A DNA stretch of 47,722 bases. Source: Campylobacterales bacterium. GTDB taxonomy: Bacteria; Campylobacterota; Campylobacteria; Campylobacterales; Hydrogenimonadaceae. The stretch is from positions 1 to 47,722 of the forward strand of contig JALWMA010000067.1 of NCBI GenBank assembly GCA_027081015.1, in the 5' to 3' direction. Shown piece after piece: positions 4,866 to 34,934 of this stretch (positions within the stretch are counted from its first letter, which is position 1; every line of letters begins with the position of its first letter). The translations under genes and the position numbers were made by a program. The notes under the pieces were generated by a model. That model was not told the DNA's origin and did not search any database. It was given only the letters and a program-made list of their open reading frames with translations.

Positions 4866-6823
4866 GCTCTATGCGTGTCAAACTTCTTTTCGCATTCTCG
4901 ATAATTCTGACTGCAGGCTTCATTGCAACATGGCTTATCCTCTCCAGATACGAAACCGACAAACTTACCGAAGAGATTGTAAACAGACTTCACATAGAGG
5001 CGATAGAGTCGGCAGACGAAATAGTCCAAAACCTGGAAGAGCTGAAAAAAGAGCTGGTTTTTCTATCTGCACTGGATGTAATGGATGACATCATCGCACA
5101 CGATGTCGATATTCGAATCGAGTCGTATCTAAAAAAGAGAGCGGCCGACCTCGGCAACGGGATAGAGTTCGTACTCTTCGATACTGCCGGAAACGAGATT
5201 CTTGCGACACTGAGGCAGAACACCGACATAGATCCAAAAGCTCTTTTCGACACGGCAAGCGGAGGCAAAAGTTTTTTTAACAGGTTTTACATCATCTCGG
5301 CCCAAGTTCACGCCTCGTTTGATAAAAATCTGAATATTGGAAGGCTGGTCATGCTGGTACCTCTACAATATTTTAAAAAAGGTCTGCATGAGACAGGAGA
5401 TAAATTTGCATGGCTCCTGCCTCCCGAAAGTTCGGACAACACCGTAAAAGAGATTTTTTCCGCTCCGAATGAGAAGCTGGATGAAATGATCTACGCATCC
5501 ATTCCTTTGGCATCTCCACTTTACGGCTGGAAACTAATATACGCCGTAAAAAAAGAGGATGCGCTGCAAACCGTATATTTTGCAAAGAATATCATCTTCG
5601 CCACTTTCATCATTATGGCCCTGCTTATGGGACTCCTCACACTGATGGTTGAGAAACAGCTTCTCACCCCTGTAAGAGAACTCTCCAGATTTGTAAAAAA
5701 GATTATTGAGACAAACAACTACAGACTCAAACCGCCGATACCATCGAACGACGAGATAGGAGATCTGGCCGAAAGCTTTGCGGTTCTTATGGAGAGAACG
5801 GACAATGCACTAACAGAGATTGAAGAGCAGAATCTACGGCACATGAGAACTCTCGAAGCGCTCATGACCTTTCTGGAAGAGATGGCCGCTGCCAAAAGTG
5901 TGGATGAAGCGATAGAGACGGCAACGAACAGGATCAGGTTGATGACGGGTTCGAAAGCGGTTGACATCTCCGAGAGTGCGGATCAGGAGAAGTGGAGTCT
6001 CTCTATACCTATTCTTTACGAAAAAAGAGAAAAGCCGGTATACCGATACATCAATGTCAAAGAGGTCGACAACACTCTCGCTATGACCGACAGAGTATAT
6101 GCATCGATCGGCCGTATCGTCTCTGCACAGATAGAGAGGCTCCACCTTCTAAAGAGCAAAACATCTTTCTTTTCAGGACTCTCACACGAGCTGAAAACGC
6201 CGCTTGGTTCCATTCTTACACTCGCACAGCTTCTTATCGGATCGGGTAAATGCGGTGAGAAAGAGATGGAGTCTCTTGCCAGAATAGAACGATCGGCAGA
6301 GTACCTTCTACATATAATAAACGATATTCTCATGCTGGCGAAAGCCGATGCGGGAGAGATCAAACCGCATATACAAAAGTGCGACTTCAGAAGCCTGATC
6401 GGCGAGTGCATAGAGATAATAGAGCCGTTGGCAGAGGCAAAAAACCTTACCCTTGAAGCACTGTTTTTGGATCATTGCAAAAATATTCCGACAGATCCGA
6501 AACTTCTGCGTATGGTTATAATAAACATTCTGGCAAACTCCGTAAAGTTCACCCAAAAAGGGTTTATCAAACTATATATCTCTACGTATGACGGAGACCT
6601 TCGGATAAAGATAATAGACAGTGGAATAGGAATTTCAAAAGAGAATCTCGACAAGATTTTTGACGAATTTTTCAGGGAGTACAGAGAGGATTCAAGTGAA
6701 CACGGTACAGGGATAGGGCTTGCACTAAGCAAAAAAATAGTAGAGATCCTTGGCGGCCGGCTGAAGATTTCCAGCGAAGGAGAGGGCAAAGGAGCGTGTG
6801 CCACCATCACTCTCCCTCTATAG
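4862..6823 (+). CDS. membrane sensor histidine kinase (HAMP-HisKA-HATPase)
   Basis: 653 aa from GTG at 4862 (4 bp overlap upstream); an ATG at 4871 is an alternative start. TM1 is about residues 5-24; a periplasmic sensor domain of about 210 residues follows; TM2 is about 238-262 (IIFATFIIMALLMGLLTLMV); then HAMP (about 265-320), a coiled-coil/linker domain, and HisKA with H442 in FFSGLSHELKTPLGS. ATP-binding boxes are NILANSVKFT, DSGIGIS and GTGIGLALSKKI. The kinase is complete. Its 3' end overlaps that of the convergent regulator gene (6807-7475) by 17 bp, so the likely partner is on the other strand and separately transcribed. Confidence 0.9.
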   Translation: MSSMRVKLLFAFSIILTAGFIATWLILSRYETDKLTEEIVNRLHIEAIESADEIVQNLEELKKELVFLSALDVMDDIIAHDVDIRIESYLKKRAADLGNGIEFVLFDTAGNEILATLRQNTDIDPKALFDTASGGKSFFNRFYIISAQVHASFDKNLNIGRLVMLVPLQYFKKGLHETGDKFAWLLPPESSDNTVKEIFSAPNEKLDEMIYASIPLASPLYGWKLIYAVKKEDALQTVYFAKNIIFATFIIMALLMGLLTLMVEKQLLTPVRELSRFVKKIIETNNYRLKPPIPSNDEIGDLAESFAVLMERTDNALTEIEEQNLRHMRTLEALMTFLEEMAAAKSVDEAIETATNRIRLMTGSKAVDISESADQEKWSLSIPILYEKREKPVYRYINVKEVDNTLAMTDRVYASIGRIVSAQIERLHLLKSKTSFFSGLSHELKTPLGSILTLAQLLIGSGKCGEKEMESLARIERSAEYLLHIINDILMLAKADAGEIKPHIQKCDFRSLIGECIEIIEPLAEAKNLTLEALFLDHCKNIPTDPKLLRMVIINILANSVKFTQKGFIKLYISTYDGDLRIKIIDSGIGISKENLDKIFDEFFREYREDSSEHGTGIGLALSKKIVEILGGRLKISSEGEGKGACATITLPL

Positions 6824-7475
6824 TGTAACCTACTCCCCTCACCGTTTTTATAAGAGCGCTGTTTCGAATCTTCTTTCTAATATTTTTAATATGTACATCC
6901 ACGACGTTGCTTGACGAGATTTTATCGAAATCTCTGTGAATATGCTCGAAAAGCTGGTATCTGGTCAAAACCACACCCCTGTTCCTTACAAGAAGCTCCA
7001 GCAGTTCGAACTCTTTGGCGGAGAGCTCCACCCTCTCTCCTCCTACCCTTACACTGCGACCTTTCAGGTCTATCTCCATATCGTCGATCTTCACCGCTTC
7101 ATTTTTCAGAGTCGCTCCCCTTCTGATAAGTGCACGGACCCTTGCAAGTAGTTCAATATTCGAAAACGGCTTGGGCAGGTAGTCGTCGGCACCATTGTCG
7201 AGGGCATCCACCTTATCCTCCACCTCACTTCTTGATGAAAAGAGCAGAACCGGTGTTACCACCCCGATCTCTCTTATTCTACTCAGCCACTCTACACCGC
7301 TTCCGTCGGGAAGCATCCAGTCCAGAAGAATCAAATCGTAGTTTCTCTCGTTGAGCAGGTTTGATGCTTCCATGATAGTGGTGGCGGTAAAGATCTTGTA
7401 TCCGCCGGTTTTAAAAACCTCTTTCAATCCAAAAAGGAGGTCTTCGTTATCGTCCACTACCAGCAGATAGCCCAT
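6807..7475 (-). CDS. OmpR/PhoB-type response regulator
   Basis: 222 aa. The start is the ATG at 7475 because GGAAGGGGGG lies 4 bp before it; a TTG five codons upstream would sit on that ribosome site. The receiver domain has acidic DD at 8-9, phospho-acceptor D52 (LILLDWMLPDG), S80 and K102 (PKPFS); a winged-helix DNA-binding domain fills about 125-222 (AKEFELLELLVRNRGVVLTR, ending GVGYTIEGE). Only 27 bp separate it from the upstream FmdE-like gene with no terminator, so it is probably the last gene of the hemerythrin operon driven by the FNR box at 10355, yet it faces the sensor kinase at 4862-6823. Confidence 0.9.
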   Translation of the reverse strand: MGYLLVVDDNEDLLFGLKEVFKTGGYKIFTATTIMEASNLLNERNYDLILLDWMLPDGSGVEWLSRIREIGVVTPVLLFSSRSEVEDKVDALDNGADDYLPKPFSNIELLARVRALIRRGATLKNEAVKIDDMEIDLKGRSVRVGGERVELSAKEFELLELLVRNRGVVLTRYQLFEHIHRDFDKISSSNVVDVHIKNIRKKIRNSALIKTVRGVGYTIEGE

Positions 7476-7502
7476 ATTCCCCCCTTCCAAGGTGAACGAG
7501 TA

Positions 7503-8105
7503 TCAAAACAGAGTAACCATCTCTTTCCAAAGCTCTCTTTGCAATAAGATCCTCTTCACACGCTCCTGCCACAGCCGGGCGAACCGTCTCTTCTCGTCAC
7601 TCTCCGCGACTCCCTGCAGAACCTTCTGCATCAGCGCCTGCTGCTCGGGGGTGCCGGGAACTACGGAAGGGTTGTAGGCAAGCTCCACGCTCACGCCGTT
7701 GTCGAGCCTGCTCAACCTGACCTCTCCCTCCATCTCGACGCCGTATATGAGCCTGTTGTTCCTGGCCATCCTGCCGCCGAGCCCCTTGAAGCCGCCCTCG
7801 TTTGCGGCACCGGTAATGAGGCCTATACAGCTGCCTATGACCCCTACCACACCTTCGTCCAGCGCCCCGCGCATCTCCACTCTTATCTCGCCCCTTACCG
7901 GAAGCTCCTCGCCGTACAGCTTTTTCAGGGCGATCGATGTCATGATCCACGCACCGGCCACTGTCGGACAGGAGTGGCCGGCAAATTTGACCATATCGAG
8001 GTAACTGTATGTGAACCTGCCCTCTTCTGCGGCACCGAGCGTCTCGGCCAGGGGGTCGTACATGTCGATCGGTTCGACTTCGTCGAAAAATTCAGGGTAC
8101 TTCAT
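7503..8105 (-). CDS. FmdE-like domain protein
   Basis: 200 aa, no signal peptide. The motif FAGHSCPTVAGAW (about residues 41-53) corresponds to the GHxCP metal-binding motif that opens the FmdE (molybdenum formylmethanofuran dehydrogenase operon) domain, and the centre is Gly-rich (GVIGSCIGLITGAANEGGF). The C-terminal zinc-finger seen in some FmdE proteins is missing; instead there is a helical tail. ATG overlaps the stop of the upstream membrane-protein gene by 4 bp (ATGA), so the two are translationally coupled. FmdE domains are linked to molybdenum or other cofactor metabolism but have no firmly established reaction; here the neighbours point to NO or haem chemistry. Confidence 0.65.
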   Translation of the reverse strand: MKYPEFFDEVEPIDMYDPLAETLGAAEEGRFTYSYLDMVKFAGHSCPTVAGAWIMTSIALKKLYGEELPVRGEIRVEMRGALDEGVVGVIGSCIGLITGAANEGGFKGLGGRMARNNRLIYGVEMEGEVRLSRLDNGVSVELAYNPSVVPGTPEQQALMQKVLQGVAESDEKRRFARLWQERVKRILLQRELWKEMVTLF

Positions 8106-9364
8106 AGGATTCCTTTATCTTTTAGAGATTGGTATATCTTGGCCGCACGAACCAGGTTTGCACCGTAAAGCAGAAACTCCGCGGCCATAAAGGCTCCGAC
8201 CGCTTTCCATGCGTACGGTGTAACGCTCAAAGCGGCTCCGGCCGCCAATAGGCCCCAGTGCAGCCACAGATGCGCCATAGCCCTTTTAGATGGTATTATA
8301 TCACCCATCATCGGGCACTCGATCACCCCTTTCGCGTTGAGATGAAACCAGACGAGAAAAGGGACTATCTTGTAGCTCATCGCAAATATCACGCTCAATA
8401 CGAAATAGCCGAACAGCAAAGAGGCGGCAGAGACCATGACATCGGCATAGATGAAGTTCGACAAAAATGCCGCTACGGATGCGGCGGCCAGAGAGATCAT
8501 GGCCGTACGCCACATTAAAACCGTAGCGTCGGCTACCGGACGTTTTCGCCGGGAGAGGCGCCTGAGTGTGACCGCCGCAAAGATAAAGAAGATGAAAACG
8601 AGAAGAATATCCATCATGGCGGCCGCTTCCGGCATAACGTAAGAGACCGCAAAGAAGAGAATCAGCAGCACGAAAACGGCAGCTGGAAAAATGTCGGTAA
8701 CCTCTCTAGGGTAGGGCGGGGTGACGTAAAACATCTCGATCACCTGAAAAGCGACCGCCATCACCAGCACCCCGATCCAGCCGACGAGCATGAAGTGTAT
8801 ATGTACGGAGCGCAGCACCATAGGGTCGAGCCCTATATCGAAATCCATAAAGATGGCCGTCAACAGCAGTGCGAAGAGGATTCCGAAGCCAAGGCTCGCC
8901 AATGACACCATCATACCCTTTACCGAAGCCGTCTTGTTCTCCACTTTCACAAGTTTCGAAAGCATCAGGTATATCACGAAACCGAGGCTTCCGACAAGAA
9001 GCGGCACGGCCGGGTGCATCAGGATATATCGGTCGAAGTAGAAAGAGGCCGAGAGCAACACGATACCCACTACCATGAGCATATGGATCCACCTCGCATG
9101 ATAGAGCGGCTCCGAAATCGAAGCGCCGGCGATCACTGGCAGCATCTGAAAGAGTGCGCCGACCATGGCCATTGCGGCCACACCCAGCATCAGCAGGTGC
9201 ACTACGGCGACCACAGCCGGCGCATCCCAATGAAGAAGCATCTCCGGATCCGCAAAGAGTATGGCTCCGGCGGCCAGGACTCCGAAAAGAGGAGTGGTCA
9301 GGAAAAACCGCAGTATGACTTCTATAGGCGGAGCCTGGTCGAGAGAAAGTCCTTTATTGAACAC
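8102..9364 (-). CDS. 12-TM membrane protein, haem-copper-oxidase/NnrS-like
   Basis: 420 aa, almost entirely membrane with about 12 hydrophobic helices. Histidines sit at helix positions typical of haem ligands: VVHLLMLGVAAMAMVGALFQ (TM2), HIHFMLVGWIGVLVMAVAFQ (TM6), FLVWFHLNAKG and MAHLWLHWGLL. The HIHFMLVGW block resembles the HAHLGLFGW block of distant haem-copper oxidase subunit I relatives found near denitrification genes, and the protein also resembles NnrS in general layout. It lacks the HH pair and the Glu set of NorB, so it is unlikely to be a NO reductase by itself. A role in NO tolerance or sensing is inference from the hemerythrin and DUF2249 genes immediately upstream. Confidence 0.6.
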   Translation of the reverse strand: MFNKGLSLDQAPPIEVILRFFLTTPLFGVLAAGAILFADPEMLLHWDAPAVVAVVHLLMLGVAAMAMVGALFQMLPVIAGASISEPLYHARWIHMLMVVGIVLLSASFYFDRYILMHPAVPLLVGSLGFVIYLMLSKLVKVENKTASVKGMMVSLASLGFGILFALLLTAIFMDFDIGLDPMVLRSVHIHFMLVGWIGVLVMAVAFQVIEMFYVTPPYPREVTDIFPAAVFVLLILFFAVSYVMPEAAAMMDILLVFIFFIFAAVTLRRLSRRKRPVADATVLMWRTAMISLAAASVAAFLSNFIYADVMVSAASLLFGYFVLSVIFAMSYKIVPFLVWFHLNAKGVIECPMMGDIIPSKRAMAHLWLHWGLLAAGAALSVTPYAWKAVGAFMAAEFLLYGANLVRAAKIYQSLKDKGIL

Positions 9365-9620
9365 TGCAGTACCCTTTCATAACATTTTTGAGATCGAACT
9401 CTTCACTTTTCGAAAAAATTATATGCCACTCGTTCTCTGCGGCTTCACACACCTCGAAACGAATCCCATGCCGTTCGGCTATCGCAAGGAGGGGCCGCGG
9501 CAGACGGTGGATGAGCAGGTGAAAGAGGTTCGAGCCGTCCAGCCTCCGAAAGATCTCTACCGACCTCTCGAGCGGTTCGGGATGGTTCAACCCTCTTGCA
9601 TCGAGTTCCAGAATCTCCAC
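9354..9620 (-). CDS. DUF2249 domain protein
   Basis: 88 aa from GTG at 9620; a TTG at 9629, which would overlap the hemerythrin stop as TTGA, is the alternative. The protein is a single DUF2249 domain: ILELDARGLNHPEPLERSVE opens it, and the C-terminal strand (NEWHIIFSK) follows. DUF2249 domains are small TusA/SirA-like folds often fused to or next to hemerythrins; in this window one is separate and one lies at the end of the DUF1858 protein. It overlaps the membrane-protein gene by 11 bp. No catalytic Cys is in the expected TusA position. Confidence 0.75.
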   Translation of the reverse strand: MEILELDARGLNHPEPLERSVEIFRRLDGSNLFHLLIHRLPRPLLAIAERHGIRFEVCEAAENEWHIIFSKSEEFDLKNVMKGYCSVQ

Positions 9621-9625
9621 ACCTC

Positions 9626-10057
9626 TCAATGCTCTTTCATCTCGTTTACAAGCTTTTCGGCCTCGGCATCCAGGAGCCGGTCGCACATAGCATAGAGCAT
9701 CTGCTCCTCTTTCATGTTGTGCTGCTGCAGTAGTATCATAAGGGTGTCCGCAACCGAAAAGAACCTCTCTTTGTCCCTACTGTCTATGGCCTCTTTGAGC
9801 TGCTCCAGAAGCCCCCTTACCTGGGTATGCTCGTGGCGCATGACCCGAGTGGGTCCTTCGGTGGTTCCGGCAGCCTTCTCGAACGCGGGGAAGAGTATCT
9901 CCTCCTCTTTCGAAAAGTGTCTCAGGGTATCGAGCATAAACTCTTCGAAGTGTCTGAAAGCCTCCTCGAAGTCACCGTTGCTCGCAGCCTGTTCGGCCTT
10001 TGCAAACGACTCGTCACAGCTGCGGTGCTCCTCTCTCATATAGTTTGATATCTCCAT
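9626..10057 (-). CDS. hemerythrin-domain protein
   Basis: 143 aa, ATG with AGGAGCGG upstream. A four-helix hemerythrin HHE fold with ligand candidates H11 (MREEHRSCD), H47 and E51 (TLRHFSKEEEILFPAFE), H75/H77 (MRHEHTQ), and H113 and E117 (LLQQHNMKEEQMLY). Such cytoplasmic di-iron proteins bind O2 or NO, or help repair Fe-S clusters (as in the YtfE/ScdA group). It is the first full-size gene of an operon with DUF2249, a haem-copper-like membrane protein and an FmdE-like protein, all behind an FNR-type box, which suggests a nitrosative-stress or low-oxygen role. Confidence 0.9.
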   Translation of the reverse strand: MEISNYMREEHRSCDESFAKAEQAASNGDFEEAFRHFEEFMLDTLRHFSKEEEILFPAFEKAAGTTEGPTRVMRHEHTQVRGLLEQLKEAIDSRDKERFFSVADTLMILLQQHNMKEEQMLYAMCDRLLDAEAEKLVNEMKEH

Positions 10058-10068
10058 ACGATCCGCTC

Positions 10069-10143
10069 CTATCTGAAAGTTAAAAATATTTTTGCCATCA
10101 GCACGGCAGTCAAAGCCAGAAACGAGACCATTATCCAGTCCAT
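10069..10143 (-). CDS. 24-residue membrane peptide heading the hemerythrin operon
   Basis: ATG at 10143 with AAAGGGA 5 bp before it, stop TAG at 10071-10069, 11 bp before the hemerythrin ATG. The product is one transmembrane helix with short ends (MDWIMVSFLALTAVLM then AKIFLTFR). The start site, ribosome-binding site, stop and spacing all look like a genuine gene, and the hemerythrin Shine-Dalgarno lies directly after its stop. Function unknown; it may be a leader that couples translation, or a small subunit that associates with the 12-TM protein of the same operon. Confidence 0.6.
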   Translation of the reverse strand: MDWIMVSFLALTAVLMAKIFLTFR

Positions 10144-10325
10144 ATTTTCCCTTTCAACCATACTGCCCCGTTTCGATGTTCGCAGAGATGCAAAATCTTA
10201 CGGTTTCGTGTTTTGCACCCCTCTTTGAGAACCGGCGCAAAACCTGCAAAGACCGTTTCCAAACTGCTGTAGAAGCTCAGAAACGGCCGGGGCCGCGCGG
10301 CTTTATACAAAAGAAGTTCAGTGCG

Positions 10326-10331
10326 ATTGTA
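10326..10331 (-). promoter_or_regulatory. leftward -10 box (TACAAT) of the hemerythrin operon
   Basis: TACAAT on the minus strand predicts a start at about 10319, which puts the FNR-type box (10355-10368) at about -42. The mRNA leader before the 24-residue peptide would be about 175 nt. Confidence 0.5.
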
Positions 10332-10354
10332 CTCAAAAAGATCTTTCAAATTGG

Positions 10355-10368
10355 TTGACGCCAATCAA
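10355..10368. promoter_or_regulatory. FNR-type box between hemerythrin operon and nrdD
   Basis: TTGAC-GCCA-ATCAA, one mismatch from the TTGAT-N4-ATCAA consensus. It lies about 42 bp upstream of the predicted start for the leftward -10 (10326-10331) and 41.5 bp upstream of that for the rightward -10 (TATAAA, 10391-10396). It is also embedded in a wider ATTGG-N6-CCAAT palindrome. Binding by the CRP/FNR protein encoded at 31084 is inference. Confidence 0.65.
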
Positions 10369-10390
10369 CAAACAGAGATTTTTATTTTAA

Positions 10391-10396
10391 TATAAA
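10391..10396 (+). promoter_or_regulatory. rightward -10 box (TATAAA) upstream of nrdD
   Basis: TATAAA predicts a start near 10403, exactly at the foot of the hairpin at 10404-10457 and 41.5 bp from the centre of the FNR-type box. Confidence 0.5.
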
Positions 10397-10403
10397 TGCG
10401 ATG

Positions 10404-10468
10404 TCACAAATGTGTCACCAAAGCCCGTAAAAACGGGATGCCGTGACACATTTGTGAGCTCTTTTTTT
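10404..10468 (+). terminator. strong intrinsic terminator just after the FNR promoter (possible small RNA or attenuator)
   Basis: Perfect 15-nt arms TCACAAATGTGTCAC (10404-10418) and GTGACACATTTGTGA (10443-10457) enclose a second hairpin (CCCGT 10424-10428, ACGGG 10433-10437); seven T residues follow at 10462-10468. On the plus strand this is a textbook terminator, but no plus-strand gene lies upstream. A transcript from the predicted start at 10403 would be about 65 nt. Confidence 0.7.
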
Positions 10469-10506
10469 ATCGCCCGGCAAGTAAAAAAAGCTTACAATTT
10501 CAGAGT

Positions 10507-10702
10507 CCGGCGTACGAAGATTTCGTAACCGGGTACCTGCTCCTTTAGCTTGCACCGAAATGAGCAATTTTTTGAAGCGTCCTGTGCTTCAGACACCCTT
10601 TCGGAACCTGTCACGAAGAAGTGGAAACGGACACTTTTTCGCGACAGGTTCTGTCAAAAGGGTGCTTCCAAAGCCCCGTCGAGGCCGCTTGACCTCCCGG
10701 GG
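10507..10702 (+). other. structured leader upstream of nrdD
   Basis: Four further plus-strand hairpins are visible between the terminator and nrdD: CCGG-cg-TACGAA (10507-10518) with TTCGTA-a-CCGG (10522-10532, imperfect); GAAGC/GCTTC (10574-10590); CACCCTTT (10594-10601) with AAAGGGTG (10657-10664), enclosing GAACCTGTC (10604-10612) with GACAGGTTC (10643-10651); and CCCCG..GAGG (10674-10684) with CCTC.CGGGG (10693-10702), followed by TTTT. I see no match to the cobalamin riboswitch and no NrdR box. It may be a cis-regulatory RNA or a dispersed repeat. Confidence 0.5.
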
Positions 10703-10757
10703 TTTTCGAGGCACCCGGGATAACTCCTGCATAAACCATACAGAAAAGATTTTAACG

Positions 10758-12881
10758 ATGCTTAAAGAGATTCTGAAAAGAGACGGTACGAAAGAGGCGT
10801 TTGCCCCCTATAAAATAGAAGATGCGATCAAGGCGGCTTTCAAAAGCCAGAACACCACATACGACAGTACGATATTTTTCAACGTACTCGACAGACTGAA
10901 ACAAAGACGCATCGCCGCGGTCGAAGATATTCAGGATATGATAGAGCAGGAGCTATTCAAGGCCCGCTACTTCGAGGTGATGCGCGCCTTCATGATCTAC
11001 CGCCACACCCACAAGATGCAGAGAGAGCATATACTCGGTCTGGTAGAAGACACCACCTTTGTCAACTCTACCGAGACGATAGAGGAGTATATCTCAAAAA
11101 GCGACTGGCGCATTAACGCCAACTCCAATACCGGATACTCGCACGCGGGGCTGATAAACAACACGGCCGGCAAGATCATCGCCAACTACTGGCTCGACAA
11201 GATCTACTCAAAAGAGGAGGGGTACGCCCACAGAAACGGCGACTACCATATACACGACCTCGACTGCCTGAGCGGTTACTGTGCGGGGTGGAGCCTTCGC
11301 GTGCTTCTGGACGAGGGGTTCAATGGCGTAAGGGGGCGCGTCGAGAGCCGTCCTCCGAAGCACTTCAGGGAGGCTCTCGGACAGATGGCCAACTTCCTGG
11401 GCATACTGCAGTCTGAGTGGGCCGGCGCTCAGGCATTCAGCTCGTTCGACACATATCTTGCGCCCTATCTCTTCAAAGATCGACTCTCTTATACCGAGAC
11501 CAAAAAGGCTATACGCAGCTTCGTATACAACCTCAACGTCCCGGCACGATGGGGGCAGTCACCCTTTACGAACATAACGATCGACTGGACCGTTCCGGAA
11601 GATCTCAAAGAGCAGTTCCCCACCCGCGCCAAGGAGCACCTGCTGAAAGGTTTGGATGATGAGCGGCTGCTGAAAGAGGCCAGAAGACGCGACCCGAACA
11701 TAACCTCTCTGGAGCAGATGTGCTATCGCCACTTCCAACCCGAGATGAACATGATCAACCGTGCATACTACGAAGTTATGACCGAAGGCGACAGCACCGG
11801 GCAGCCCTTTACGTTCCCGATACCCACGGTAAACATTACCGAAGATTTCGACTGGTACGGCGAAAATACCGATATTCTCTTCGAAAACACGGCCAAGATC
11901 GGCTCGTCATACTTTCAAAACTTCATAGGAAGCCAGTACAAGCGGGATGAAAACGGAAACCTGGTGCCGAACGAAGAGGCGTACAAACCGGGACATGTCA
12001 GAAGCATGTGCTGCAGGCTTCAGCTCGATCTTCGAGAGCTCCTCAAAAGAGGCGGCGGGCTCTTCGGAAGCGCCGAAATGACCGGCAGCATCGGTGTCGT
12101 CACGATAAACATGGCCAGACTCGGATACCTCCACAAAAACGATATCAAGGGGCTCTACAACAGGCTCGGGGAGCTGATGGACCTGGCTAAATCGACACTC
12201 GAAAAGAAGAGAAGGTTCATCCAGGAGCTTTACGAAAGGGGGCTCTTCCCCTATACGAAACGGTATCTTCCCGGTTTCAACAACCACTTCTCGACAATAG
12301 GCGTAAACGGCATGAACGAGATGATCAGGAACTTCTCCGACGACACGCTGACGATAGCGGACGAAGAGGGGAGACGTATGGCCCTCGAGATTCTCGACTT
12401 CATGCGCGACAGGATGAGGGAGTACCAGGAGGAGACCGGAAATCTCTACAACCTCGAAGCTACGCCTGCGGAGGGAACCACATACCGCTTCGCCAAAGAG
12501 GACAGAAAGAGATACCCAGATATCATTCAGGCCGGTAGCGGCAAAAACATCTACTATACCAACTCGTCGCAGATACCGGTGGATCTGACCGAAGATCCGT
12601 TCGAAGCGCTGGAGCTGCAGGACGAACTTCAGTGCAAATATACCGGCGGAACGGTTCTGCACCTCTATATGAGGGAGCGCATAAGCTCTGCGGAGGCGTG
12701 CAGAAACTTGGTAAAGAGGGTCATAACGAACTTCAAACTTCCGTACATCACGGTAACGCCGCTCTTTTCAGTATGCCCCAAACACGGCTACATACCGGGC
12801 GAACACGAATTCTGCCCGAAGTGCGACGAAGAGCTGCTGCAAACTTATGAAGAGGAGGGGAAAAAATGTTCGTCGTTTTAG
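10758..12881 (+). CDS. nrdD: anaerobic (class III) ribonucleoside-triphosphate reductase, main part
   Basis: 707 aa from ATG at 10758; an in-frame upstream ATG at 10560 would force the GC-rich hairpins to be coding and was rejected. Residues 1-90 are an ATP-cone (ILKRDGTKEAFAPYKIEDAI), followed by the glycyl-radical barrel (HIHDLDCLSGYCAGWSL, NMINRAYYEVMTEGDSTGQP). The C-terminus is a zinc site, CPKHGYIPGEHEFCPKCDEE, and then the frame ends EEEGKKCSSF. The glycyl-radical loop that normally follows the zinc site in the same chain is missing; it is encoded by the gene at 12992. The enzyme reduces NTPs to dNTPs without oxygen and needs NrdG (13134). Confidence 0.93.
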   Translation: MLKEILKRDGTKEAFAPYKIEDAIKAAFKSQNTTYDSTIFFNVLDRLKQRRIAAVEDIQDMIEQELFKARYFEVMRAFMIYRHTHKMQREHILGLVEDTTFVNSTETIEEYISKSDWRINANSNTGYSHAGLINNTAGKIIANYWLDKIYSKEEGYAHRNGDYHIHDLDCLSGYCAGWSLRVLLDEGFNGVRGRVESRPPKHFREALGQMANFLGILQSEWAGAQAFSSFDTYLAPYLFKDRLSYTETKKAIRSFVYNLNVPARWGQSPFTNITIDWTVPEDLKEQFPTRAKEHLLKGLDDERLLKEARRRDPNITSLEQMCYRHFQPEMNMINRAYYEVMTEGDSTGQPFTFPIPTVNITEDFDWYGENTDILFENTAKIGSSYFQNFIGSQYKRDENGNLVPNEEAYKPGHVRSMCCRLQLDLRELLKRGGGLFGSAEMTGSIGVVTINMARLGYLHKNDIKGLYNRLGELMDLAKSTLEKKRRFIQELYERGLFPYTKRYLPGFNNHFSTIGVNGMNEMIRNFSDDTLTIADEEGRRMALEILDFMRDRMREYQEETGNLYNLEATPAEGTTYRFAKEDRKRYPDIIQAGSGKNIYYTNSSQIPVDLTEDPFEALELQDELQCKYTGGTVLHLYMRERISSAEACRNLVKRVITNFKLPYITVTPLFSVCPKHGYIPGEHEFCPKCDEELLQTYEEEGKKCSSF

Positions 12882-12991: not shown

Positions 12992-13147
12992 ATGCACAAC
13001 AGAGACGAGATACTAAAAAAGCTGCAGGAGAGACGTACAAAGTGTACGGTATATACGAGGGTGATGGGTTACCATAGACCGGTAGAGAGCTTCAATATCG
13101 GCAAAAGAGGCGAACACCGCCAGAGAAAGCAGTTTGTTGAGCGATAA
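12992..13147 (+). CDS. glycyl-radical domain of class III ribonucleotide reductase as a separate 51-aa protein
   Basis: ATG at 12992 with a near-perfect AGGAGG at 12981-12986. The sequence CTVYTRVMGYHRPVESFNIG followed by KRGEHRQRKQF is the C-terminal glycyl-radical block of NrdD, in which the RVxGY glycine carries the radical; here that is G26 in RVMGY. In most NrdD proteins it directly follows the CPxC zinc site. It lies between nrdD and nrdG (14 bp overlap with nrdG) and must complement the 707-aa NrdD in trans. A sequencing error is unlikely, because a frameshift and a stop codon separate the parts and both have their own ribosome sites. Confidence 0.8.
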   Translation: MHNRDEILKKLQERRTKCTVYTRVMGYHRPVESFNIGKRGEHRQRKQFVER

Positions 13148-13811
13148 ACAGATTTTCGACATCACACCATTTACCCACCTCGACTATCCCGGCAAACTGG
13201 CCTGTATAGTCTGGTTTTGCGGCTGCAACATGCGCTGTATGTACTGCTACAACAGCGATATAGTATTTGCCAAAGAAGGGAACTACGGTGTAGACGAACT
13301 CTACGACTTTCTCGAAAGGCGCATAGGGCTGCTCGACGGGGTGGTTCTAAGCGGAGGAGAGCCGACGATACACGAGCTGGCTCCCATCTGCCGAAAAATA
13401 AGGGAGTACGGCTTCTCCATCAAACTCGATACGAACGGACTCAACACCGAGAGGGTGGAGGAGCTTGTCGAAGAGGGCCTGGTCGACTATATCGCCCTCG
13501 ATTTCAAAGCCATGAACGGAAAATTCGGCTATGTGACAGGATCGAGCAGGTACAAAGGATTCATAAAGACACTCGAGTTTCTTGTCTCGAGCCAGGCGCA
13601 GTTCGAAGTGCGCACGACGATCCACTCGGACCTTCTGCAGCCAGAAGATATAAACGTAATGATGCGTGAACTTAAGTCATACGGATACAACGGCCCCTAC
13701 TATCTTCAGAGATTCATAGAGACCAGAAACAATATAGCAAACATGAAGAGTCCCGAAAGCGACTTCGACGAGAGCAGACTCGAAGATACGCTTCAGATCG
13801 TCTGGCGCTGA
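13134..13811 (+). CDS. nrdG: anaerobic ribonucleotide reductase activating enzyme (radical SAM)
   Basis: 225 aa starting with TTG at 13134 (a second TTG at 13137 is equally possible). The radical-SAM cluster motif is C31-x3-C35-x2-C38 (WFCGCNMRCMYCY), followed by the GGEP motif (VVLSGGEPTI). It generates the 5'-deoxyadenosyl radical that oxidises the NrdD glycine, here G26 of the separate peptide. It overlaps that peptide gene by 14 bp. The length and the short spacing before the cluster fit NrdG of the pyruvate-formate-lyase-activase superfamily. Confidence 0.9.
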   Translation: MLSDKQIFDITPFTHLDYPGKLACIVWFCGCNMRCMYCYNSDIVFAKEGNYGVDELYDFLERRIGLLDGVVLSGGEPTIHELAPICRKIREYGFSIKLDTNGLNTERVEELVEEGLVDYIALDFKAMNGKFGYVTGSSRYKGFIKTLEFLVSSQAQFEVRTTIHSDLLQPEDINVMMRELKSYGYNGPYYLQRFIETRNNIANMKSPESDFDESRLEDTLQIVWR

Positions 13812-13843: not shown

Positions 13844-14539
13844 TCAACCCTTTCTTGAGCCGGCCCCGGCAAGAAGGTAGCCCTGCCCCGATATATTCTC
13901 TATCAGCCCCCTGTCGCTCTTCTGCCTGACTCGCTTTATGAAGGTTCTGAGCCTGTCGTCGCTCACCTCTTCATCGGGCCAGAGTGCGGCTTTGATCGCA
14001 TCGTTGGAGAGGTAGTTGTTGGGGCTGTGCAGCAGCTGGGCTATAAATCTGCTCTCACGCTTGCTAAGGTGAACCAGCACCCCGTTTTTGAAGAGCTGTT
14101 CGCTCTGAAGATCGTACTCGAACGGCTCCATCAGCTTGATCCTGTTCTGCTTTTTTATCTTCAGCGCCAGTTCGCAAAGATAGTTCAGGAGCTCTTCCGG
14201 ATCGAAGGGCTTTATGAAGTACTTTACCACCCCGACATCTATCGCACCGAGCAGCTTCTGTTTGTCGCTGTATGCGCTGAGTATTATCACCGGCACATCC
14301 GGGTTTTCCGACTTTACTGCGGATGCGAGTTGAAGCCCGTCCATCCGGGGCATCGTGATGTCCGTAATGACGATATCGGGCCTCAGTCTTCTGAATGCCT
14401 CCAGCCCCTCTATCCCGTCATGAGCTATCGCAAACTCCGCGAAATAGTCGCCTATCGCCTCTTTGAGCAGCTTGGCGAGGGTCTCTTCGTCCTCCACCAG
14501 CAACAGGCGCAGATTTACAAGTCTCGAGCTACACGACAT
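13844..14539 (-). CDS. response regulator with winged-helix output domain
   Basis: 231 aa, ATG with AGGAGA 6 bp upstream, overlapping the kinase stop by 11 bp. The receiver has E16/D17, phospho-acceptor D60 (DIVITDITMPRMDG), S88 and K110 (YFIKPF). A C-terminal OmpR-like effector follows (HLSKRESRFIAQLLHSPNNY ... ISGQGYLL). It is cotranscribed with the PAS kinase, its obvious partner, and with the fused siroheme decarboxylase upstream of that. Target genes are not evident. Confidence 0.88.
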   Translation of the reverse strand: MSCSSRLVNLRLLLVEDEETLAKLLKEAIGDYFAEFAIAHDGIEGLEAFRRLRPDIVITDITMPRMDGLQLASAVKSENPDVPVIILSAYSDKQKLLGAIDVGVVKYFIKPFDPEELLNYLCELALKIKKQNRIKLMEPFEYDLQSEQLFKNGVLVHLSKRESRFIAQLLHSPNNYLSNDAIKAALWPDEEVSDDRLRTFIKRVRQKSDRGLIENISGQGYLLAGAGSRKG

Positions 14540-15752
14540 CCGCGGTCTCCTCCGCCAGCGGTATCTCTATCACGAAGCAGGCGCCGTCGCCGCAGTTTTT
14601 CGCCTCTATGCTGCCGGACAACCCCTTCTCGATGATCATCTTCGACATGAACAGCCCCAGACCGGTCCCCTTGGCCGTATGCTTGGTGGTGAAATAGGGC
14701 TCGAATATCCGCTCGAGTGCCGACTCCTCTATCCCTCCGGCATTGTCGGCCACGGTGATTCGCGCGAAATCCCCCTCTCTCGAGACTATCAAGGATATCT
14801 TTCTATCACTTATACCCTTTTCGATGAAGGCGTCTTTGGCGTTTTGAAGCAGGTTGATTATGACCTGCGAGAGCTCGTTGCTAACCCCTACCGCCTTTAG
14901 CGACGTATCTATGGACATATCTATCTCGATATGCTCTTTTTCGAGACTCTTGTGGAGTATCTGCATCGACTCCTCCAGACTCTTGGCGATCTCGAAGGGC
15001 TCTTTCGGCTTGTCGGGTCTGAAGAAGTTGATGAAGTCCTCTATCGTCTGCGACATGTTCTGAATCATCGCTTTGGCTTCGTCGTAGATCTCCTCCACCT
15101 GCTCGTCGTCCCTCTTAAGGGCCGCCCTCTTCATGTTGAAGAGCGCCAGCGTGAGCTCAGTAAGCGGCTGTCTCCACTGGTGCGCTATATTCGCCATCAT
15201 CTGCCCCAGGCTGGCAAACCTCGACTGCCAGAAGAGCATCTTCTGCTTCTCCTCGTTTTTGCGCACCTCTTCCCTTACCCTCTCTTCGAGATTCTTGTTG
15301 AGCTCGTAAAGCTTGCGGGTCTGCAGGGCCACGCGCTTCTCGAGTGTCCTGTTCAGAGCCTCGAGCTCCTTCTCCTTCTTTTCGAGCGCGATCTTCAGGT
15401 TCACCTCTTTCGTCACATCGTATCTGATGGCTATGAACTCTTCAATGTCGCCCTTTTCGTCGAGTATGGGGATTATGGTGGTGTTCACGAAGAAGGTGCT
15501 GCCGTCTTTCGCCATGTTCATGACGGTAGACTTGTAAATCTTCTTGTTTAAAATCGTATCCCAGAGCCGCTTGAAGTTACTGGCCGGAACGTCCGGGTGG
15601 CGGACTATGTTGTGGTTCTGGCCTATCAGCTCCTCTCTCGTATATCCTGAGATTTTGCAAAACTCGTCGTTTACGAAAGTGATAATGCCGTTTATATCGG
15701 TTTTCGAGACGATATTGGAACTCTCGATCGCATCTTTGTACTGCTTGAACAT
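14529..15752 (-). CDS. cytoplasmic PAS-domain sensor histidine kinase
   Basis: 407 aa without membrane segments. Residues about 5-120 are a PAS domain of the Aer type (ITFVNDEFCKISGYTREELI, then NIVRHPDVPASNFKRLW), which in Aer binds FAD and senses redox state. A coiled coil (about 118-175) leads to a HisKA-like domain with H191 in NIAHQWRQPL and a HATPase domain (NLLQNAKDAF, DNAGGI, GTGLGLFMSKMI). It starts 3 bp after the siroheme decarboxylase stop, so it lies in the FNR-box operon, which suggests a redox or electron-transport sensor tied to denitrification. Confidence 0.9.
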   Translation of the reverse strand: MFKQYKDAIESSNIVSKTDINGIITFVNDEFCKISGYTREELIGQNHNIVRHPDVPASNFKRLWDTILNKKIYKSTVMNMAKDGSTFFVNTTIIPILDEKGDIEEFIAIRYDVTKEVNLKIALEKKEKELEALNRTLEKRVALQTRKLYELNKNLEERVREEVRKNEEKQKMLFWQSRFASLGQMMANIAHQWRQPLTELTLALFNMKRAALKRDDEQVEEIYDEAKAMIQNMSQTIEDFINFFRPDKPKEPFEIAKSLEESMQILHKSLEKEHIEIDMSIDTSLKAVGVSNELSQVIINLLQNAKDAFIEKGISDRKISLIVSREGDFARITVADNAGGIEESALERIFEPYFTTKHTAKGTGLGLFMSKMIIEKGLSGSIEAKNCGDGACFVIEIPLAEETADVV

Positions 15753-15755
15753 GGG

Positions 15756-16745
15756 CTAATTATAGCACTTTTCCCACTCTGCAAACTCGTCGGAAAAGTA
15801 GTTTATGCGAACTTTTTTGAACTCTCTGGTCGAGTATAGATAGCTGTAGTCGTCCACACCGATCTCTTCCGCCATCTCCGAAACGATCTTCTCGACCTCC
15901 TCCCTGCTCTTGCCGTGCACCATCGAAAAGAGCGGGTAGGGCCAGTCCGGATAGACCGGGCGCAGGTAGCAGTGGCTGACGGCGCTGTATGCCGCCACTC
16001 TCTCGCCGATCTCTTCGGCCCGCTCCTCGGGGATCCTCCAGACCACCATCGCATTGGCCGTAAACCCCGCTTTTCTGTGGTAGAGAATCGAAGCGAACCG
16101 CCTCATTATGCCGGCCCTCTTCATCTTCTGCACCTCATCCGAGAGAGTCCCGTAATCGATGCCGAGAGAGTCGACGATATGCGCGAACGGCTCTTTTTCC
16201 GCCGCTATATCTTTTTGAAGTCCCCTTATCATCTCGTAGTGGATATCTTTTAGCTCCATGGGCTCCCTCTCCACTTTTTTGCGGCGCTCTTTTTTGGCCC
16301 TGTCGCCCTTCAGGTCAAGCTGTACCGAGATTTTGAACATCTTTTTCGTCGGAAGTATGATGTACTCTTCGCATCCGGCCTTTTGGGCAAGAATCTCCAC
16401 CGTCCTTTCGAGCCCCAGCTTCGAATCGGGGGCTACCGCGATGGTGAACCAGAGGTTGTAGGGGTTCTCCCTTTCGTAGTTGTGACTAACTCCGGGATGA
16501 GTGTTGACAAGTGCCGCAGCCTCCTCAATCCTGTCGGTTTTGAAGGCTACGAGCGACGATCTGTAGCCCAGGCTCTTCGTATCGAAAATGGCCGAAGTCT
16601 GGCGGATGATCTTCTCCTCTTTGAGCCTCGAGTAGAGGTTCAAAATCTCCTCTTCCGTGCCGCCGAGCTCCTTCGCCAGCTCCGCAAAGGGCCTTCTGCA
16701 TACGGGAAACTCTCTCTGTATCAGTGTCAAAAACTCTTTTTCCAT
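15756..16745 (-). CDS. fused siroheme decarboxylase (AhbA-AhbB / NirD-L-G-H type)
   Basis: 329 aa made of two Lrp/AsnC-like halves. Half 1 (about 1-145) carries FDTKSLGYRSSLVAF and GVSHNYERENPYNLWFTIAV, as in AhbA/NirD; half 2 (about 165-329) carries GIMRRFASILYHRKAGFTAN and VSHCYLRPVYPDWPY, as in AhbB/NirH. Such proteins decarboxylate siroheme to 12,18-didecarboxysiroheme, an intermediate of haem d1 and of alternative haem synthesis. The two subunits are usually separate or paired (NirDL), so one chain carrying both is notable. The gene is about 6 kb from nirE but diverges from precorrin-2 dehydrogenase with an FNR-type box between them. It might be misread as an Lrp regulator. Confidence 0.85.
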   Translation of the reverse strand: MEKEFLTLIQREFPVCRRPFAELAKELGGTEEEILNLYSRLKEEKIIRQTSAIFDTKSLGYRSSLVAFKTDRIEEAAALVNTHPGVSHNYERENPYNLWFTIAVAPDSKLGLERTVEILAQKAGCEEYIILPTKKMFKISVQLDLKGDRAKKERRKKVEREPMELKDIHYEMIRGLQKDIAAEKEPFAHIVDSLGIDYGTLSDEVQKMKRAGIMRRFASILYHRKAGFTANAMVVWRIPEERAEEIGERVAAYSAVSHCYLRPVYPDWPYPLFSMVHGKSREEVEKIVSEMAEEIGVDDYSYLYSTREFKKVRINYFSDEFAEWEKCYN

Positions 16746-31083: not shown

Positions 31084-31722
31084 ATGCAGAGCTTTAGAAA
31101 TTTTTACCTTTTCAAACATCTGAGCGACGAGAAGTTCGCCAGACTCGAAGAGATTTCGAAAATCGTCGACTACAAGAAGGGGGCGATCCTCTTCTTCGAG
31201 GGAGACGAGGCCAAGTCGCTGATCGTACTCATAGACGGTGTGCTGCAGGTCTACAAGACCGATCAGAAGGGGAACAAAGTGATACTCCACCACTTTTTTC
31301 CTATGGACGTGATAGCGGAGATCGTCAACTTCGAACATATGCGCTACCCGGCTTCGGCTGAGTTCGAAAGCGACGGCAAAGCGTTGATAATAGACTACGA
31401 CGCTTTCGAAAAGGAGTTTCTCAAAGATCCCGAAGTATCTTTCGCGTTCATAAAGTCACTCTCGAAAAAGATCAAATACCTCGAAAACGTGATCGCGACG
31501 AACCTGATGATGAACTCTACCGCAAGAGTCGCAAAATTCATATGCGAACATGAACATGAGATGAAAAAACTGAAAAAGAGCCATATTGCCGCCGATCTGA
31601 ACATGACCCCCGAAACGCTCTCGAGAATATTGAAAAAACTCGCCACTCTCGGTCTTATCGAGAAGAGAAAAGATGAGATAATCGTTCTCGACAAAGAGGG
31701 GCTGGAGACTTTCTACCTCTAA
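31084..31722 (+). CDS. CRP/FNR-family transcriptional regulator
   Basis: 212 aa. An N-terminal cyclic-nucleotide-binding-type beta-roll (about 10-115), a long dimer helix (about 116-150) and a C-terminal winged helix (HIAADLNMTPETLSRILKKL). The recognition helix has E177, S180 and R181, the residues by which FNR reads TTGAT half-sites. Only one Cys (C154) exists, so the oxygen-sensing 4Fe-4S cluster of true FNR is absent; DNR/NssR-like NO or haem sensing is more likely. It lies between the nor and nap clusters, whose promoters carry matching boxes. Confidence 0.9.
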   Translation: MQSFRNFYLFKHLSDEKFARLEEISKIVDYKKGAILFFEGDEAKSLIVLIDGVLQVYKTDQKGNKVILHHFFPMDVIAEIVNFEHMRYPASAEFESDGKALIIDYDAFEKEFLKDPEVSFAFIKSLSKKIKYLENVIATNLMMNSTARVAKFICEHEHEMKKLKKSHIAADLNMTPETLSRILKKLATLGLIEKRKDEIIVLDKEGLETFYL

Positions 31723-32129: not shown

Positions 32130-34934
32130 ATGTCATCTATGTCAAGACGCGACTTCCTCAAGAGTGCTGCTGCCGCTACGGCAGCAAGTGCTGTTGGGAT
32201 GTCGGTTCCTACCGAAGTAGAGGCCAAAGCGAGCAGTGCGGAGGCCGGATGGCGATGGGATAAAGCGGTCTGCCGCTTCTGCGGTACAGGTTGCGGTATC
32301 ATGGTCGCTACCAAAGACGGAAAGATCGTTGCTGTAAAAGGAGACCCAGCAGCACCGGTAAACAGGGGGCTCAACTGTATCAAGGGGTACTTCAACGCAA
32401 AAATCATGTACGGTGCCGACCGTCTGACTACACCCTTGCTGCGTATGGACGACAAGGGTAACTTCGCAAAGAACGGAAAGTTCCGTCCGGTAAGCTGGAA
32501 GCGTGCATTCGACGAGATGGAGAAGCATATACGAAAGGCTCTAAAAGAGGGTGGTCCCGAGGCCGTAGCTGTGTTCGGTTCCGGACAGTACACGATCCAG
32601 GAGGGGTACGCAGCCGCCAAGATGATGAAGGCCGGATTCCGCTCCAACGCGATCGACCCGAACGCACGCCACTGTATGGCCTCCGCGGTCGTCGGCTTCT
32701 TCCAGACTTTCGGTATCGATGAGCCGTCAGGCTGCTACGACGATATCGAAATTACGGATACGATCGTGACATGGGGCGCGAACATGGCGGAGATGCACCC
32801 GATTCTATGGGCCCGTGTTACCGACAGAAAGCTCTCCGACCCGGATCGCGTCAAAGTGGTCAACATCTCTACATACCGCCACAGATGTTCAGACCTCGCC
32901 GACATGGAGATAATCTTCCGACCCAATACGGACCTGGCGCTATGGAACTATCTCGCGCATGAAATCGTATACAACCACCCGGAAGTGATCGATTGGGATT
33001 TTGTCAAAAAGCACACGATTTTCGCTACGGGATTCGTAGAGACCGGATACGGCATGAGAATGCCGGATGAGGCAAGAAAACTCGGATACTCCGACAAAGA
33101 GCTCGAGACAATCCGCAAAGAGAAGAGCAAAGTAGTCTCCGAAAGAGAGGCACCCGGACTCGCTCCGCTAGGCTACAAAGCCGGCGACGTCATGGAGATG
33201 AAGCACAGAGGCCACGCTCTCGGACACTGGGAGATCAGCTTCGAAGAGTTCAAGAAGGGACTTGAACCGTACACTCTCGACTATGTGGCGAAAATCGCGA
33301 AAGGCGATCCTGACGAGAGTCTGGAGAGTTTCAAGAAAAAACTCGAGACCCTGCGCGACCTCTATATAGACAAGAGCCGCAAAATGGTCAGCTTCTGGAC
33401 GATGGGTATGAACCAGCACACAAGAGGAAGCTGGGTAAACGAGCAGTCCTATATGGTTCACTTCCTTCTCGGCAAGCAGGCAAAACCGGGCAGCGGCGCA
33501 TTCTCTCTGACAGGCCAGCCCTCGGCATGCGGTACGGCCCGCGAAGTCGGAACCTTCACACACCGTCTGCCGGCCGACATGCTTGTCAAAATCCCCAAGC
33601 ACAGAAAGATTGCAGAGAAGATCTGGAAGCTGCCTGAAGGTACGATCAACCCGGTAGGGTATCAGCACATCATGAATATCCATCGACAGATCGAGAGCGG
33701 AAAGATCAAATTCGCATGGGTCAACGTCTGTAACCCATATCACGACTCAGCCAATGCGAACCACTGGATCAAAGCGGCAAGAAAGATGGACTGCTTCATA
33801 GTAACATCCGACGGCTACCCCGGAATTTCGGCGAAAGTTTCAGACCTCGTTCTTCCTTCGGCGATGATCTACGAGAAGTGGGGAGCCTACGGAAACGCCG
33901 AGCGACGCACACAACACTGGAGACAGCAGGTCGTTCCGGTAGGCGAAGCGATGAGCGATACATGGCAGTGGGTAGAGCTCTCCAAGCGCTTTACGGTCAA
34001 AGATCTCTGGGGAGAGTGGACCGTAAAAGGGGGCAAAAAGCTTCCCAACGTCATCGAAAAAGCGAAAGCGATGGGTTACGACGAAGATACGACAATGTTC
34101 GAGATCCTCTTCGCCAACGACTGGTACAGAAGCTTCAGTGCCGACGATCCGATCAGTATCGGTTTCGACAATACCGACGTTTTGGGTGACCACCGCAACG
34201 TGATCGGCTCCGACGGAAAGCCGTGGAAAGGGTATGGATTCTTCATCCAGAAAGCGCTCTGGGAGGAGTACAGGAAGTTCGGTGCGGGACACGGACACGA
34301 TCTGGCCGACTTCGATACCTACCACAGGGTACGCGGTCTCAGATGGCCGGTCGTAGACGGAAAAGATACTCCGTGGCGATTCAACGTCAAGTACGATCCG
34401 TATGCGCGCAAATATGCTAAGCCGGGCGAACAGTTCGCATTCTACGGCCCCGCACTCAAGAAGATCAAGCGCGGAAATCTCAAAAAGATCGATCCGAGCC
34501 TCGGAAAGATAGCTCTGCCGAACAAGGCGAAGATCTTCTTCAGGCCCTACATGGATCCGACAGAGATCCCCGACAACGATTACGATACATGGCTCTGTAC
34601 GGGTCGCGTTATCGAACACTGGCACAGCGGTACGATGACGATGCGTGTTCCCGAGCTCTACAGGGCGATGCCCGAGGCACTCTGCTACATGAACCCCAAA
34701 GATGCGAAAGCGAAGGGGCTCAAAGACGGCGACCTGGTATGGATAGAGAGCCGCCGCGGAAAAGTGAAGGCCCACATAGATACACGGGGCAGAAACAGGC
34801 CTCCGAGAGGACTCGTTTTCGTTCCGTGGTTCGATGAGCGCGTATTCATCAACAAAGTCTGCCTCGACCACACATGTCCGATGTCGAAACAGACAGACTA
34901 CAAAAAGTGTGCGGTCAAGATCTACAAAGCGTAG
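32130..34934 (+). CDS. napA: periplasmic nitrate reductase catalytic subunit
   Basis: 934 aa, ATG behind CAGGAGG. Tat signal [14 protein letters not shown]; 4Fe-4S cysteines C48, C51, C55 and C83 (CRFCGTGCG ... NCIKG); molybdenum ligand C182 ([10 protein letters not shown]). It reduces nitrate to nitrite in the periplasm with a bis-MGD cofactor. At 934 residues it has the length of Campylobacterota NapA, about 100 longer than that of enterobacteria. It heads the nap operon behind the FNR-type box and stem-loop. Confidence 0.96.

Follow-up and report, generated by a model that had tools for sequence, protein, structure and literature searches.

Divergent hemerythrin and nrdD promoters of a Hydrogenimonas-group bacterium are probably served by two separate regulatory circuits

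The hemerythrin operon and the class III ribonucleotide reductase gene nrdD of this Hydrogenimonas-group bacterium probably belong to two unrelated circuits that happen to stand back to back. In the first, a DNR/FNR-type box would serve the hemerythrin operon; in the second, an operator for the response regulator RR2 and its kinase HK2 would serve nrdD, with no action of the box on nrdD. What points to this arrangement is conservation, fixed spacings and the natural separation of the two modules in two related genomes (G016 and G004). All features considered lie in the window, by which we mean the whole 47,722-nucleotide stretch of DNA that was analysed, and are listed in Table 1. The comparison within the genus covered 17 Hydrogenimonas-group genomes; the genus group comprises 18 species, including a locus that matches Hydrogenimonas sp. 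WV45_bin5.

Table 1. Positions of regulatory elements and genes in the window
Feature	Position	Strand	Remarks
Hemerythrin	9626..10057	-	PF01814, 81.5 bits
24-aa predicted membrane microprotein ORF MDWIMVSFLALTAVLMAKIFLTFR	10069..10143	-	first gene of the hemerythrin operon
-10 hexamer TACAAT, hemerythrin promoter	10326..10331	-	predicted +1 at ~10319
FNR/DNR-type box TTGACGCCAATCAA	10355..10368	.	upstream of the hemerythrin operon; perfect TTGAYNNNNRTCAA
TATAAA, right -10 of the preliminary description	10391..10396	+	most likely a chance match
Distal operator copy GTCACAAATGTGTCAC (plus strand)	10403..10418	-	GTGAC-N6-GTGAC on the minus strand; conserved half-sites, variable spacer
Proximal nrdD operator GTGACACATTTGTGAG	10443..10458	+	direct repeat with 11-bp period, OmpR/PhoB-like
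-10 hexamer TACAAT, nrdD promoter	10493..10498	+	predicted +1 at ~10505
nrdD leader, long and structured	10505..10757	+	conserved CCTRCTCC...AGCTTGCA
nrdD, class III ribonucleotide reductase	10758..12881	+	PF13597 plus ATP-cone from residue 4; NF006126, 1102.8 bits
nrdG-type activase	13134..13811	+	TIGR02495 NrdG2, 195.6 bits over the cut-off
RR2, OmpR-type response regulator, candidate nrdD-operator binder	13844..14539	-	Response_reg plus Trans_reg_C
HK2, PAS-containing histidine kinase	14529..15752	-	PAS, HisKA, HATPase
Crp/Fnr-family regulator, DNR-like, candidate box binder	31084..31722	+	best PDB match DNR 3DKW

The box at 10355-10368 belongs to an FNR/DNR-type regulon and is more than a chance match. 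It agrees with TTGAYNNNNRTCAA at every position (0 mismatches), and perfect sites of this kind number 15 in the whole genome (2.14 Mb, labelled G000), compared with 1 for a reversed-pattern control. Five of the 15 (at 10355, 16798, 30280, 30819, and 31981) fall within the window, which makes up 2.2% of the genome, and an open reading frame starts near each of these five; two of the genes concerned encode a siroheme decarboxylase (15756-16745) and napA (32130-34934). A -10-like hexamer is found 21 to 23 nt away on at least one side of 11 of the 15 sites, with at least 5/6 matches in 10 cases and 4/6 in the remaining one.

Judging from its position and conservation, the box very probably switches on the adjoining hemerythrin operon from a class II position. 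The minus-strand TACAAT (10331 down to 10326) is spaced 23 nt from the box, whose centre thereby falls at about -42.5. In composition-matched random sequence, a hexamer with at least 5/6 matches arises at 21 to 23 nt on this left flank with a frequency of 0.7%. Across the genus, the box is kept at 16 of 17 hemerythrin loci, upstream of the 24-aa ORF and hemerythrin, and has decayed only in G005 (identical to locus L017 in this region). All 16 boxed genomes carry a hemerythrin-side -10 with a 5/6 match 22 or 23 nt from the box, a regularity that bears out the class II role proposed for this operon in the preliminary description. It was seen in 12/12 of the first aligned genus genomes and, at 22 nt, in all four genomes outside the set on which the hypothesis was formed (G013, G010, G016, and G004).

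The hydrophobic 24-aa ORF MDWIMVSFLALTAVLMAKIFLTFR is unannotated; it is conserved in the alignment and at the unlinked hemerythrin loci L187 and L189. Two further genes of the neighborhood may be mentioned. The ORF at 9354-9686, between hemerythrin and a membrane protein gene, resembles a DUF2249-type protein by eye, and the membrane protein itself (420 aa, 8102-9364, in the hemerythrin operon) has multiple membrane spans and no Pfam or NCBIfam match. A hemerythrin gene under a Crp/Fnr-family regulator has a parallel in the Anr-regulated mhr of P. aeruginosa, as described in PMC12403760; in contrast, the operon here is a different one and its candidate regulator is of another type by sequence, without the FeS cysteine set.

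The 31084 product is most likely the regulator of the box and is a good candidate by sequence, as the preliminary description had suggested. DNR, an NO sensor, is its best solved match, and its recognition helix, PETLSR, shows the ExxSR signature that goes with FNR-type specificity. Two more Crp/Fnr proteins were found in this genome, and neither has a helix of this type. The N-terminal cysteine set of FNR proper, the oxygen-sensing 4Fe-4S protein, is absent from the 31084 product, which has one cysteine only. Considering this single cysteine, the PETLSR helix and DNR as the best solved relative, we prefer the name FNR/DNR-type site to FNR site. G008 and G014 keep the box although a search of them gave no close homologue of the 31084 product; this may reflect incompleteness of these genomes. 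A DNR/FNR-type dimer, probably NO- or redox-responsive, would thus bind at about -42 and activate leftward transcription of the 24-aa ORF and the hemerythrin operon from TACAAT; we infer the identity of the regulator, activation rather than repression, and the signal that it senses. The arrangement resembles the class II promoters of the Pseudomonas DNR regulon (PMC1274295) in its TTGAT-N4-ATCAA-like box, its DNR-like regulator and the setting of the box, which adjoins a putative NO/O2-related gene and lies near nap and siroheme/heme-type genes. It differs from that regulon in that the regulator, from Campylobacterota, has little sequence similarity to DNR, the -10 lies 22 to 23 nt from the box and the target is a microprotein-hemerythrin operon.

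On the other side of the box, nrdD would be transcribed from a promoter of its own. The preliminary description overlooked this conserved TACAAT (10493-10498), along with the inverted repeat at 10404-10457 and the true nrdD start, which is the ATG at 10758 and not 10560. The promoter hexamer lies 100 bp to the right of the TATAAA at 10391 and is conserved as TACAAT, TATCAT, or TATTAT in 17/17 genus nrdD loci. Campylobacter promoters have no clear -35 and combine an extended -10 with A/T-rich periodicity (PMC3656092), a type that the T7 and A-rich tracts at the nrdD promoter fit.

The inverted repeat consists of two direct repeats with an 11-bp period, GTCAC-N6-GTCAC at 10403-10418 and its mirror, GTGAC-N6-GTGAG, at 10443-10458. 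Relative to the nrdD +1, the operator GTGAC-N6-GTGA[CG] is centred near -54 and the mirrored copy near -94. The half-sites are invariant or nearly so, and the spacers are variable. A spacing of 34 nt between the proximal operator and the -10 is found at each of the 17 genus nrdD loci, later loci included (G013, G016, G005, G010, and G004). For the 13 genomes compared first, the two operator copies together always cover exactly 55 bp, and the -10 keeps one fixed distance. A direct repeat with a 10- to 11-bp period at a fixed distance from the -10 is the arrangement of OmpR/PhoB-type operators. The nrdD operator shares with these its two similar half-sites in direct repeat, the 11-bp period and the position upstream of a -10 with no clear -35; it differs from them in its GTGAC half-sites, in the fixed 34-nt spacing (32 or 34 in other genera) and, in this genus, in the inverted second copy.

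Other identities for the motif were considered. The Pho box is built of CTGTCAT-type 11-bp direct repeats, and nrdD is not known as a target of Pho-type control. An NrdR operator was rejected because NrdR boxes come as palindromic pairs of the form ACAC...GTGT, unlike the direct repeat at nrdD. A genome-wide GTCAC-repeat regulon was also discarded: at one mismatch the matches equal the control, and hence we claim no further targets. Two individual matches to the repeat, TGTCACTTTTTTGTCAT, may be recorded. One (locus L129, G000:C81:4046-4062) lies upstream of a response-regulator gene, and the other (L005, G000:C60:2415-2469; one mismatch) is separated by 24 bp from a perfect FNR-type box that has TATAAT at 22 nt, which makes it a second site in the genome where the two kinds of element are neighbors.

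The nrdD operator extends beyond the genus. A wider set comprised 80 nrdD loci, drawn almost entirely from other Campylobacterota, and scoring was confined to loci whose upstream sequence was long enough. Twenty-nine loci of other Campylobacterota have the strict repeat, at positions -80 to -89 relative to the start codon, and in every case there is a -10-like hexamer at a spacing of 32 or 34 nt. A different layout is seen at six loci, of which five are titled Sulfurovum and one is a Campylobacteraceae metagenome-assembled genome: they have two FNR boxes, spaced 58 to 59 bp, and a perfect TATAAT at exactly 22 nt from the proximal box. These loci serve as a positive control that calibrates class II spacing. 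Control of nrdD by an FNR-type regulator appears to exist in the phylum but not in this genome. FNR/DNR control of class III ribonucleotide reductase is known elsewhere, since nrdD of P. aeruginosa is Dnr-controlled (PMC5645315). The six FNR-box loci share this architecture; the genus nrdD promoter, in contrast, is without an FNR/DNR box and has the GTGAC-repeat operator in its place.

The nrdD operator probably belongs to a redox-sensing two-component system, for which RR2 and HK2 are the candidates. Their genes lie convergently beside nrdDG here and recur next to nrdDG in many repeat-bearing Campylobacterota loci. Among 50 genomes, an RR2 orthologue scoring above 200 bits was found for 18 of the 21 that have the repeat and for 4 of the 29 that do not (Fisher p = 4e-7, a value that is partly phylogenetic signal, being uncorrected for genome relatedness, and in which the few genomes without a listed match were given low bit scores from best E-values). 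The correlation loses significance at a threshold of 155 bits (p = 0.19), since most loci whose RR2 orthologues are 41 to 45% identical have no strict repeat; several of these, of Sulfurospirillum type, show a degenerate repeat by eye. None of the six FNR-box nrdD loci has a full-length RR2, five having no RR2 and one a truncated copy. As a side observation, RR2 is still matched in part (51% over 160 aa) in the genome of one two-box locus (L092), perhaps by the remnant of a replaced circuit.

By sequence, the PAS domain of HK2 is closest to those of MmoS (3EWK, E = 3e-27) and Aer (8DIK, E = 5e-22), flavin-PAS proteins, so that a redox or oxygen input is plausible. HK2 thus resembles the redox sensors MmoS, Aer, and NifL (3EWK, 8DIK, and 2GJ3) in this domain and differs from them as a separate kinase beside nrdDG, with flavin binding as a prediction. 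HK2 would phosphorylate RR2, which probably binds the operator near -54 and the mirrored copy near -94; we infer the binding of the repeats by RR2, its activation of nrdD and the signal sensed by HK2. Binding of the GTGAC repeats by a regulator other than RR2, such as RR1 (6807-7490, in the hemerythrin operon) or another OmpR-type protein, is possible but, we think, unlikely. The genome encodes 16 OmpR-type DNA-binding domains, and no RR2 orthologue was found for three strict-repeat loci (L052, L065, and L094). However, RR1 matches near nrdD in other Campylobacterota are of low identity (22 to 31%), and RR2 and HK2, unlike RR1, recur beside nrdDG together with the repeat.

Extending the RR2/HK2 assignment to the phylum, we lean, with some reserve, toward a scheme in which nrdD of most Campylobacterota would be controlled by a neighboring flavin-PAS kinase and an OmpR-type regulator acting on GTGAC-N6-GTGAC at a fixed distance, replaced in a Sulfurovum-related group by the pair of FNR-type boxes 58 to 59 bp apart, of which the proximal one would be class II. 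The resulting prediction for nrdD, a key gene for growth without oxygen, is that many Campylobacterota regulate it through a redox two-component system of its own and a few through FNR-type boxes. In the literature on nrdD regulation, we found no title or abstract describing a dedicated two-component system for nrdD. What is still of interest at the locus is the nrdD operator, together with the two-component system proposed for it.

The two modules are separated naturally in some relatives. G016 and G004 have hemerythrin and nrdD on separate contigs: there, nrdD keeps the GTGAC operator, with the -10 at 34 nt and no FNR box, and hemerythrin, elsewhere in the genome, keeps the box, with the -10 at 22 nt. 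In G005 (L017), hemerythrin and nrdD are adjacent, the box has decayed and the nrdD operator is intact. A consensus box is therefore missing at nrdD in all three genomes, and since each module follows its own gene, we assign the box to hemerythrin and the operator to nrdD. The sequence evidence speaks against FNR/DNR control of nrdD here, and the box is predicted not to act on this gene. A secondary long-range effect of the box on nrdD, through DNA bending or occlusion of the distal operator copy (10403-10418), is improbable: the two elements are 34 bp apart here and a few base pairs apart in five relatives, which would suit such an effect, but their distance varies widely, with insertions of ~150 to 300 bp in G008 and G009, and the loss of the box at nrdD in G005, G016, and G004 leaves the nrdD operator unchanged.

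In the preliminary description, both divergent promoters were taken to use the box in class II position, with the TATAAA at 10391-10396 as the right-hand -10. Its spacings are correct: TACAAT lies 23 nt to the left and the plus-strand TATAAA 22 nt to the right (box centre at about -41.5 on this side), so that the centre is near -42 in both directions. Its argument that such symmetry is unlikely by chance was not confirmed. On the AT-rich right flank, a hexamer with at least 5/6 matches occurs at 21 to 23 nt in 7.1% of composition-matched random trials, and among the genus genomes compared only G000 has TATAAA at this spacing; even in its closest relative, at 81% DNA identity, the hexamer is AATAAA and the spacing 21 nt. 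The predicted +1 of TATAAA, 10403, is the first base of the next operator within the conserved inverted repeat, and in five relatives (G001, G014, G015, G017, and G010) the operator begins 1 to 4 nt past the box (read directly for G010), too close for a promoter to fit between them. The distance from the box to the nrdD +1 ranges from about 110 to 412 bp between species. With a right -10 unique to G000, this variable distance and the boxless nrdD of G016 and G004, the class II role for nrdD does not hold up. The proposed link between hemerythrin and dNTP synthesis through one box falls with it, and dropping this NO/O2-to-dNTP connection for the genus avoids a wrong regulatory inference.

The inverted repeat at 10404-10457 can also be folded as RNA, giving a predicted hairpin of -31.7 kcal/mol (z = -7.3) with TTTTTTT directly after it. 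These features would suit an FNR-regulated small RNA of ~65 nt (10403-10468), driven by TATAAA and ending at the perfect hairpin and T7 run, a reading that we regard as very unlikely. The stem is perfectly paired in this genome only, and only here does it occur together with the -10. In relatives, pairing between the two arms holds for the half-sites but often fails in the spacers, as fits a protein operator and not a selected RNA stem, and the T run is kept also where the right -10 is missing. Stem pairing of an intrinsic terminator or small RNA at 10403-10468 is thus not maintained across relatives. Since the half-sites are nearly invariant and the spacers are not kept complementary, we favor a protein operator and rejected a small RNA or attenuator as the main reading.

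Even if limited to this species, a single box in class II position for hemerythrin and nrdD alike is scarcely credible: TATAAA does sit exactly 22 nt from the box, as at genuine class II sites here and at FNR-controlled nrdD promoters in other Campylobacterota, but the hexamer is unconserved and expected by chance at 7%, its +1 hits an operator base invariant in 13 genomes, its RNA would begin with the -31.7-kcal/mol hairpin and then U7 and would likely terminate, and a fully conserved nrdD promoter lies downstream, kept without any box in G016 and G004.

Downstream of the operator and promoter that we assign to nrdD, the leader is itself structured (z = -5.5 for 10470-10775) and carries, after a variable hairpin, the genus-conserved motif CCTRCTCC...AGCTTGCA. 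An Rfam search of the region and the nrdD leader returned no family, only sub-threshold chance matches, and no second copy of the leader motif was found in the genome. In several genomes, base pairing is possible between the CCTACTC of the leader and the 5' arm of a hairpin further on, which may suggest a switch.
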